Positions 42,994-45,727 of a stretch of DNA of 64,000 nt are shown in pieces. This stretch comes from Haloarcula amylovorans (GTDB lineage: Archaea > Halobacteriota > Halobacteria > Halobacteriales > Haloarculaceae). Under the pieces are notes generated by a model. That model had not been told where the DNA came from and did no database searches. It was given only the letters and a program-made list of their open reading frames with translations. Positions within the stretch are counted from its first letter, which is position 1. The number at the start of each line of letters is the position of its first letter. Where the stretch lies: assembly GCF_004681185.1 (NCBI RefSeq), contig NZ_SRIF01000002.1, positions 539,994 to 603,993 on the forward strand, written 5' to 3'. The translations under genes and the position numbers were made by a program.

Positions 42994-43629
42994 ATGCGAT
43001 TCGGCGTCGACGAGGCCGGCAAAGGACCCGTGTTGGGGTCGATGTTCGCCGCGGCCGTCCGGGCCGACCTGAAGGCGCTCCCGGAGGACGTCGGGGACTC
43101 GAAAGATATCGCTCCCCAGCGCCGCGAGCAGTTGGCGACGGAGATTCGGAGCGCCGCCGACGCCGTCGCCGTCGCGGAGATTCCGGTCGTTCGTATCGAC
43201 GACCCGGAGACGGACATGAACACGCTGACCGTCGCGGCCCACGCCGAGGCGCTCTCGGGCGTGGCGAGCGACGGACTGGCTGGTACCGTCGACGCGGGCG
43301 ACACCGACGCCGAGCGGTTCGGTCGCCGCGTCGCCGACCGGGTGGCCGCCGACGTGACCGTCGCGGCCGAACACGGAGCCGACGAGACGGACCCGCTGGT
43401 GGGCGCTGGCTCGATCGTGGCGAAGGTAGCTCGTGACGCCCACGTCGCGGCGCTCAGCGAGACGTACGGTGACGTCGGTTCGGGCTACCCGAGCGACCCG
43501 ACGACGAGAGAATTTCTGGCCGACTACGTGCGTCGCCACGGCGACCTGCCTGACTGCGCGCGGGCGTCCTGGTCGACGTGTGAGGACGTGCTCGCGGCCG
43601 CCGAACAGGCGACGCTGGGCGAGTTCTGA
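42994..43629 (+). CDS. rnhB: Ribonuclease HII
   Basis: 211-residue RNase HII. MRFGVDEAGKGPVLGSMF holds the first Asp-Glu pair; GDSKDIAPQRREQL and GAGSIVAKVARDAHVA hold the rest of the active site and the GSIxAKxxRD motif; YGDVGSGYPSDP follows. It nicks RNA in RNA-DNA hybrids and removes ribonucleotides from DNA. The start at 42994 is set by the family N terminus (VDEAGKG). Confidence 0.95.
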   Translation: MRFGVDEAGKGPVLGSMFAAAVRADLKALPEDVGDSKDIAPQRREQLATEIRSAADAVAVAEIPVVRIDDPETDMNTLTVAAHAEALSGVASDGLAGTVDAGDTDAERFGRRVADRVAADVTVAAEHGADETDPLVGAGSIVAKVARDAHVAALSETYGDVGSGYPSDPTTREFLADYVRRHGDLPDCARASWSTCEDVLAAAEQATLGEF

Positions 43630-43639
43630 CAGCTGGAAA

Positions 43640-44003
43640 GACCCCGCGAACGCGGTTTAGACCTGAACGGGAGATGTTTTCGACAGCCCCTGCGGCTGTG
43701 CTGGCACACTGTCGGCGTTTAGCCGGGCTTGCACCGGCCTTGTCCGCGTGGACTTTAGCTGGGCTCTCACCAGCCTTGCCGACGTACCAGGTTCCCGAAT
43801 GCCACTTACGTGATATCCGGTAGTTGGCCTTGCTACCGATCCGGCCGGCCGGACCGGCGATGGGCTGTGGCGGTTCTCCTTCAGAGCGTTACCCTCGGAG
43901 TCCTGTGACAGACTGCTCGGTTCTTGCCCCCAACGCGTCCCTTCATGTCCTGTACGGGCAGTTCTGAGATGCGTCGTTCAGTGTATCCCCGCGTTCCAGC
44001 GGG
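43640..44003 (-). ncRNA. Candidate structured RNA with promoter and terminal hairpins
   Basis: Minus-strand unit. A TATA box (44025-44033) predicts a start near 44002, right at a CCCGC/GCGGG hairpin (43988-44003). Internal helices: GGTAG with CTACC (43819-43837), a TCCGGCCGGCCGGA palindrome (43840-43853), and a four-way junction closed by GTCGGC/GCCGAC (43711-43716 with 43778-43783). The junction encloses three hairpins: 43722-43738, 43742-43753 and 43758-43774. Two of them are near copies with GNRA-like loops. A CCGC/GCGG hairpin followed by TCTTTCC would end it near 43640. It is not RNase P, SRP or tRNA by motif. It may be an omega-RNA/TnpB remnant. Confidence 0.5.
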
Positions 44004-44024
44004 AATAGAACCTACGTCGCGTAC

Positions 44025-44033
44025 GGATATAAG
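44025..44033 (-). promoter_or_regulatory. Minus-strand TATA box for the candidate RNA
   Basis: GGATATAAG on the plus strand reads CTTATATCC on the minus strand. It is placed about 27 nt before the first hairpin of the candidate RNA. Confidence 0.5.
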
Positions 44034-44140: not shown

Positions 44141-45727
44141 TCAGCTCTCGTCCAGCACGAGGTTTCGGAGGATGTCACCGTAGGCCGGCCGCGTCACCAG
44201 CACGCCGATGAGGACGCCGACGATGGTGATGATAGCGAACCCGGAGAGGTCGCCGAGCGAGAGCACCATCAGCGGACTCATGGCGACGATCGTCGTCGCC
44301 GCGGCCGCGCCGATGACCCAGAATGCCTTGCGGAAGCGGTTCTGGAACACTCTCCCGGTCTCGACTTCACCCTGTTGTAGTATCTCGTCGGCGATGATGA
44401 TGAGGTCGTCCACCCCCGTCCCGATGACGGCGATGAATCCCGCCAAGTGAGATAAGTTCAGCGGGTACTGGACGAACGCGACGAAGCCAAGGAGGATGAA
44501 CACCTCGGAGAGCGCCGTCACTATCATCGGCAGTGCGACCTCTGCCCGACCGTAGCGCCCGTAGACGACCAGACTGACCGCGGCGACGGCGAGCAAGCCC
44601 GTTAGCAGCGAGTTCGTCTTGAACTGGTCGGCTAATGCCGGTTCGAGCGAGCGCGTCTGCGTCACCTGCGGGTCGAAGTTGAGCGGCGCGGGGAGCTGTC
44701 CCGCGTCGAGGCTGAGCTTCACCTGCTGTGCCTTCTCTCGGGACGGCACTTCGATGGTCAGCGTCGGGTTCTCGGCGAAGGAGCCGTCGGCGAAGGAGCT
44801 GCCGAGCCCAGGCTTGACGCTGCCGTTGAAGACGATTTCGTCTTCGTAGGTGACCTGCAGGCACTCGACGGGTTGCCCTCTGGCCTGGGCTTGCTGAGGA
44901 CTACAGAACCCGCCGTTACCGAATCCGGCGGCGGCCATCTCCTGTGCGAACGACTGGGCCGCCCCTTCCTCCATCGTCACCGAGAACGTGTACGACTCGC
45001 CACCGGCAGAAGTCTGCTGCTGGTTTATCGTCCCAGTTCCCCGGATCGCCTCAGCCCCTTGATCCAGCACGGGTTTGCGGACGTAGGTGCCGTTCTCGGC
45101 CGGATAGTAGGCGTACATCCGGACGATACCCCGGTCTTCGAGGATGCTGCGCAGTTCCTCGTAGTCCTTATCCGGGGCCGTAATCGCGATGTAGTTTCGC
45201 TCGCCGGTGCGGGCCTGAGTCACCGTCCCACCCGAGAGCGCCGACGTGGAGATTTTCTGGTCGATGGCCTCGACCATCTCGTCGCGCGTCTGTTCGGTCA
45301 CGCCCTGTCGGACCGTCTCGGGCTGGTAGCCCGCGTCTTCGAGCGCTGTCTGTAAATCGGACTGTGAGACGTTCTTCGAGAACACCTCGACGGTCCCACC
45401 CTCGGCCCGCGGCACGGCCTGAATGTCGATTCTATCGACGCCGAGGCTATTAGCCAGCGTCTGTTCAAGTTGGGCCCGCTGTGTGGTGTTCGTCGGAACG
45501 TCGATGCCCTCGGCCGTAATCCCGACGACGGGGGCGCGGATGCGTGTCCCACCGTTCAGTTCGATGCCGTACTGGAGGTTCGTCATCCCTTCGGAGCCGG
45601 CCGCCGACGAATCGTTGGCCGACGGGTTGCTGCCCGGCGGGACGCCTGGAACGAACAGCGCCACGGCACTCACCAGGAGGAGGAGTATCAGCGCGCCGAT
45701 ACGCCAGTTCTCGCGTATCGCGCTCAT
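44141..45727 (-). CDS. secD: Protein-export membrane protein SecD
   Basis: 528-residue SecD with one N-terminal TM helix, a large extracytoplasmic P1-like domain and five C-terminal helices. GIELNGGTRIRAPV is the first signature; the TM part shows FVQYPLNLSHLAGFIAVIGT, GVDDLIIIADEIL and TTIVAMSPLMVLSLGDLSGF. It assists Sec translocation by pulling substrates from outside. Its start overlaps the secF stop by 4 nt. Confidence 0.95.
   Translation of the reverse strand: MSAIRENWRIGALILLLLVSAVALFVPGVPPGSNPSANDSSAAGSEGMTNLQYGIELNGGTRIRAPVVGITAEGIDVPTNTTQRAQLEQTLANSLGVDRIDIQAVPRAEGGTVEVFSKNVSQSDLQTALEDAGYQPETVRQGVTEQTRDEMVEAIDQKISTSALSGGTVTQARTGERNYIAITAPDKDYEELRSILEDRGIVRMYAYYPAENGTYVRKPVLDQGAEAIRGTGTINQQQTSAGGESYTFSVTMEEGAAQSFAQEMAAAGFGNGGFCSPQQAQARGQPVECLQVTYEDEIVFNGSVKPGLGSSFADGSFAENPTLTIEVPSREKAQQVKLSLDAGQLPAPLNFDPQVTQTRSLEPALADQFKTNSLLTGLLAVAAVSLVVYGRYGRAEVALPMIVTALSEVFILLGFVAFVQYPLNLSHLAGFIAVIGTGVDDLIIIADEILQQGEVETGRVFQNRFRKAFWVIGAAAATTIVAMSPLMVLSLGDLSGFAIITIVGVLIGVLVTRPAYGDILRNLVLDES

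Follow-up and report, generated by a model that had tools for sequence, protein, structure and literature searches.

The 64,000-nt stretch of Haloarcula amylovorans DNA analysed here (the window) encodes, on its minus strand at 43643–44005, a structured RNA of ~360 nt lying between secD and rnhB. Both flanking genes are intact, and the RNA runs in the same direction as secD with its own TATA box, which is present at 44033–44025 as the initial annotation had stated; the RNA start at 44005 was inferred from the TATA spacing. Of the 56 homologues, 42 have a TATA-like word 41–57 nt ahead of the anchor (background rate 0.024), and 40 have a T-rich run within 35 nt after the closing helix P0 (background 0.055). 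Being far above background, these signals argue that the RNA has a gene of its own, which begins close to the base of P0. The window genome contains a single copy of the RNA, and there is nearly always one per genome elsewhere. Searches of the window sequence and of divergent members against Rfam, at both gathering and permissive thresholds, returned chance matches only and no family and, as far as we have searched, the RNA was previously uncatalogued.

Table 1. Positions of the structured RNA, its predicted helices and the neighbouring elements within the window.
Feature	Position	Strand	Evidence or partner
Structured RNA, bounded by its closing helix	43643..44005	-	conservation in the genus, covariance model to phylum level, covariation
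TATA box CTTATATCC, with a BRE-like A/T-rich stretch before it	44025..44033	-	sequence
T-rich tail, probable terminator	43635..43642	-	T-rich runs in homologues
secD flank	44141..45727	-	Pfam SecD_SecF_C, synteny
rnhB flank, RNase HII, convergent	42994..43629	+	Pfam RNase_HII, synteny
P0 5' strand CCCGCTGGAACGCGG (first hairpin of the initial annotation)	43989..44003	-	MFE, covariation (56 sequences)
P0 3' strand CCGCGTTCGCGGG (GC terminator hairpin of the initial annotation)	43643..43655	-	MFE, covariation (56 sequences)
P1a GGAT and P1b CTGAACG, 5' strands, with ACA bulge	43975..43988	-	partners in 43669-43658
P2/P3 stem-loop	43933..43974	-	folds in nearly all homologues; covaries within the genus
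P4 arm: P4a GGGGGC/GCTCTG, P4b ACC/GGT, P4c with GTNACA-like loop	43882..43931	-	
P5 long-range 5' strand GGAGA(ACC)	43872..43879	-	partner TCTCC 43674-43670
P6 long-range 5' strand CAGCCC	43862..43867	-	partner GGGCTG 43689-43684
P7 GC-rich hairpin	43836..43859	-	8/9 pairs covary
Conserved AAGGCCAAC; GGCC is the P8 strand	43823..43831	-	long-range partner near 43699-43694
P9 hairpin, GNRA-type loop (GTAA)	43795..43820	-	11 pairs, 90.6% paired, 6 covary
P10 arm, enlarged into the four-way junction of the initial annotation	43701..43790	-	
Conserved single-stranded CGAAAACA, then P5 3' strand TCTCC	43670..43682	-	GAAAAC near-invariant

Comparative analysis indicates that this RNA is a new class, predicted to fold into about a dozen helices, of which three are long-range. 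Nine helices were scored on a MAFFT alignment of 27 sequences built without reference to structure (A7). The share of pair cells that are paired is 91.6%, and it drops to 31–44% if the structure is slid. Covariation, with changes on both sides, is seen at 39 of the 53 pairs, and none of 500 shuffles reaches these values. The initial annotation had proposed a covariance model built from homologues and a test for covarying pairs, and both the homologues and the covariation were indeed found. The covariation result stays when three non-haloarchaeal sequences are added (alignment A8). The closing helices, namely P0, P1a and P1b, come from a separate count made on 56 longer sequences. Relative to shuffled sequences, the minimum free energy (MFE) has a z-score of -2.2 for the 394 nt of the initial annotation and -3.4 for 43643–44005; for a compact homologue (L050) it is -7.3, and the MFE structure there agrees with the comparative model. 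The architecture common to the homologues comprises a long closing helix (P0/P1), several hairpins and three long-range helices (P5, P6 and P8) in which the central part of the molecule pairs with its 3' segment.

In the window copy, the closing helix P0 has two parts that together make up about 13 bp. Its strands correspond to elements described previously as a first hairpin (44003–43989) and as a GC hairpin with a T-rich tail. The sequences and the tail are there, but covariation across 56 sequences shows that 44003–43989 pairs with 43655–43643. P1b is 98.5% paired with covariation at 5/7 pairs (56 sequences), and the P4 helices are 91–95% paired with double changes. Among the long-range helices, P5 is 94.8% paired (4/5 pairs covary), P6 is 97.5% paired (5/6 pairs covary) and P8 covaries as GRCC/GGYC, with one pair showing 12 double changes. 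A local hairpin in the covariance model of the RNA core, CUCY-GAA-RGAG, was rejected: it shows no covariation and 119/200 shuffles are as good, whereas the long-range partner covaries. All five pairs at the base of P10 covary, and its inner hairpins do so within the genus. The perfect four-way junction of the initial annotation lies in this arm and is real, with a GTCGGC/GCCGAC stem (43783–43778 with 43716–43711) and three hairpins (43774–43758, 43753–43742 and 43738–43722) joined by AAG and TAAA linkers, but it is a Haloarcula-type enlargement of P10 and not a conserved core; in many relatives P10 is a single GNRA-like hairpin, CUGGC-GNAA-GCCAG. Peripheral regions vary elsewhere too. In Haloferax (L192, L160, L201, L189 and L070) P2/P3 has grown from about 42 to 74 nt and is branched, and three non-haloarchaeal members (L229, L230 and L231, from genomes G180, G189 and G198, respectively) have one more hairpin between P4 and P5, following GGCGCCCNAUGAUG; in haloarchaea about three nucleotides stand in its place.

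BLAST searches among relatives identified ten RNA-bearing genomes in the genus, the window's own included, and gave faint matches in two other families. The locus itself is stable: secD is present in 32/32 genus genomes and adjacent to rnhB in all 31 whose locus was compared. The RNA occupies the same site in 13 of these 31 loci, where the secD-rnhB gap is 486–572 nt; the remaining 18 have a gap of 43–280 nt and no recognisable remnant of the RNA. Applied to 146 Halobacteriales genomes from 56 genera, a covariance model of the RNA core (R1) detected it in 32 genomes and 17 genera, at E-values (1e-10 to 1e-46) that are rough owing to a short calibration; the large searches used strict filters and may have missed weak members. 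A DNA pattern made from the most conserved hairpin gave 50 matches among 84,980 species, of which 49 are Halobacteria confirmed by R1 and the other, on a Clostridia contig, is a chance match. Named carriers include Haloarcula, Halomicroarcula, Haloferax, Natrialba, Haladaptatus, Halorussus, Halogranum, Halobellus and Halorarius, and homologues range from about 270 to 430 nt. The initial annotation had suggested an undescribed haloarchaeal RNA. As far as searched, 'undescribed' is supported by the conserved, covarying helices, a TATA box belonging to the gene itself and the lack of an Rfam match. The RNA occurs in many haloarchaeal families, although 'haloarchaeal' is slightly too narrow because G180, G189 and G198, from two further Halobacteriota families outside Halobacteriales, also carry it. 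A channel-like gene, the same one in both genomes, is found near the RNA of G180 and G189. No copy was found in the viral contigs searched; a plasmid search identified two Halorussus megaplasmids in which the RNA lies beside a gene for the PIN protein HARP (see below). Salinigranum salinum has a tandem array of four head-to-tail matches to the RNA model within 750 nt (L194, 6952–7695, minus strand), three of them shortened. A divergent subgroup was also seen (L086 5001–5133, L073 and G065:C1:510535–510668); HARP and a ligase adjoin the RNA of this subgroup in G108 and neither was found in G065 or G115, whose RNAs are possibly copies in decay.

Gene comparison across 20 loci from different families revealed one recurring neighbour, a PIN protein matching TIGR03875 (the NCBIfam 'RNA ligase partner'), Pfam PIN_5 and the PDB entry 'RNA-free ribonuclease P' (7e8j, E=1e-34), which together identify it as HARP. 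No more than about 2 kb separates its gene from the RNA in 9/20 sampled loci, spanning five families, where random placement in a 3.5-Mb genome predicts about 0.02; depending on the family, the two genes are arranged divergently or convergently. In the window genome HARP is not adjacent to the RNA and is found together with the ligase on another contig. The 146 Halobacteriales genomes divide into 29 with both RNA and HARP, 3 with the RNA only, 18 with HARP only and 96 with neither (Fisher p=4e-15), so that HARP is present in 29/32 genomes with the RNA versus 18/114 without it. Counted by genus, the same categories hold 16, 1, 10 and 29 (p=3e-6). These Fisher p-values overstate independence, since the genomes are related, and the genus-level and joint-absence associations are safer than the genome-level tests.

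Within the window genus, all 13 genomes with the RNA have HARP (20 do in all) and the RNA was detected in no genome lacking HARP (p=4e-4). On a secD plus rnhB tree, RNA and HARP are jointly missing in G014, whose sister G021 has both, and again in the six-genome G008 clade, even though the two genes are unlinked in this genus; several losses affected the RNA alone, and the genus has no RNA-bearing genome that lacks HARP. In a phylum-wide sample, all eight genomes with the RNA have HARP, including G180, G189 and G198, compared with 58/148 overall. The three exceptions among the 146 Halobacteriales genomes are metagenome-assembled genomes of 63% (G050) and 89% (G115) completeness and the 99% complete G065, in which a weak, possibly decaying RNA copy occurs without HARP. 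The converse does not hold: HARP often occurs without the RNA, as in 18/47 Halobacteriales and in most HARP-containing genomes of other classes. No diverged RNA was detected by R1 near HARP or the ligase in HARP-positive, RNA-negative genomes; a whole-genome search of these with model R2 gave at best 22 bits (at least 45 for accepted members), and model R3, applied to the 10 kb around HARP in 20 phylum genomes, returned only three loci already known. Co-occurrence, adjacency in several families and joint absence together indicate that the RNA depends genomically on HARP.

The Rnl3 RNA ligase (TIGR01209) was found only in genomes that have HARP. Among the 47 HARP-positive Halobacteriales, 15 have both ligase and RNA, 18 the ligase without the RNA, 14 the RNA without the ligase and none neither (p=2.5e-4); every sampled haloarchaeal genome with HARP therefore encodes the structured RNA, Rnl3 or both. 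Seshadri and Gopalan (2025; PMC12153264) raised the question of why some HARP genomes lack the ligase, and in our sample all such exceptions (14/14) have the structured RNA. The HARP–Rnl3 association described there is likewise patchy and sometimes involves adjacent genes, the difference being that its partner for HARP is a protein, whereas here it is an RNA.

Several known RNAs were compared with the new one. No motifs of RNase P, SRP RNA or tRNA had been noticed initially, and Rfam likewise gives no gathering-level match to tRNA or SRP RNA at the locus. Pre-tRNA is a known substrate of HARP; its acceptor–T-arm stack is roughly as long as the closing stem of the structured RNA, whose 3' segment GGGUUCUAAUC resembles a T-loop. 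Interpretation of the 3' end as a T-arm was rejected, the full T-stem being present in only 3/56 sequences. The 17-nt hairpin at 43738–43722 (minus strand), with its T-loop-like GGUGCAAGCC, is identical to positions 31–47 of the twister-sister family (RF02681, E=0.8); with 17.3 bits against a cut-off of 34, and only one hairpin matched, in the unconserved part of P10, a twister-sister ribozyme was also rejected. Box C/D and H/ACA guides gave no match near threshold, a limited test given that Rfam covers archaeal guide RNAs only partly.

A link to a protein RNase P, a length of about 270–430 nt and a helix that closes both ends might suggest a paralogous or divergent RNase P RNA, which is also large and closed by a terminal helix. 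We regard this as very improbable: three representatives gave no cmscan match to the archaeal family (RF00373) even at E=10, the RNase P segments GAGGAAAGUCC and ACAGAA are absent, the RNase P locus gives no match to model R3, and a normal RNase P RNA is encoded elsewhere in the window genome (RF00373, 127 bits). The latter gene (G000:C12:341427–341980) is 554 nt long and has an internal duplication in which an 82-nt block occurs twice with 90% identity (L043, 1681–1762 and 1835–1916). The alternative raised in the initial annotation, that the locus is an omega-RNA or the 3' remnant of an IS200/IS605 element with a decayed TnpB end, has in its favour a minus-strand frame that by eye reads as a short TnpB-like peptide, and omega-RNAs are structured haloarchaeal RNAs of similar size. 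It is vanishingly improbable: no open frame is conserved across homologues, the flanks are intact, there is one copy per genome at the same site across the genus with no signs of mobility, neither tnpB nor another transposase was seen among the examined neighbours (secD, rnhB, HARP, Lrp-type regulators and others), and the helices covary as RNA across several lineages.

The best explanation, which we hold with about even confidence, is that of a stable, highly folded RNA whose existence depends on HARP, with the RNA being either a substrate of the protein or its partner in a ribonucleoprotein (RNP). Transcription would start at the base of P0, and the transcript would fold into the P0–P10 architecture and serve as a dedicated HARP client. 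HARP may bind the P0/P1 end much as it would the acceptor–T-arm stack of pre-tRNA, and then either trim an end of the RNA or stay bound as an RNP. The predicted start leaves almost no 5' leader, which argues against simple removal of a 5' leader and for binding or minimal trimming. Counting against this explanation, Haloferax volcanii HARP knock-outs grow normally (PMC10941002, PMC12153264); the frequent occurrence of HARP without the RNA and the exceptions G065 and G115 also weigh against it. Alternatively, the RNA could regulate HARP, as an inhibitor or an RNA antitoxin acting on the PIN nuclease, with Rnl3 taking that part elsewhere. HARP does belong to a VapC-like PIN group (PMC10941002), the RNA is almost never found without it, the two are divergent neighbours in one arrangement, and the RNA-or-ligase rule among sampled HARP-positive Halobacteriales would fit. 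However, HARP is reported to complement E. coli and yeast RNase P mutants without any antitoxin, and loss of the ligase reportedly causes no growth defect in Thermococcus (PMC12153264), and it is for these reasons that we prefer a substrate or RNP partner; the many genomes with HARP and ligase and without the RNA also speak against regulation, which we consider unlikely. It is similarly improbable that the RNA has its own function in an ecological or physiological niche that also favours HARP, the two being co-retained without direct contact. Both are patchy and unlinked in many genomes (on different contigs in the window genus), as this would predict, yet adjacency in several families and orientations and joint absence at unlinked loci are hard to explain on such a basis.

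All archaea also have an RNA-based RNase P, HARP knock-outs are without phenotype, and the Rnl3 ligase was previously the sole genomic clue to the role of HARP in archaea (PMC12153264, PMC10941002). In the open-access literature covered, HARP is linked to no RNA besides tRNA and C/D RNAs. Differential RNA-seq of Haloferax lists hundreds of unnamed intergenic sRNAs, so the transcript may be present, unrecognised, among them. It is possible, though doubtful, that in many haloarchaea HARP acts as an RNP with a dedicated 270–430-nt structured RNA; archaea would then keep it for this RNA or for the Rnl3 ligase pathway, and not for tRNA maturation. The structured RNA provides a concrete candidate HARP client, and a lead to the job of HARP in archaea, that is testable in genetically tractable haloarchaea such as Haloferax.
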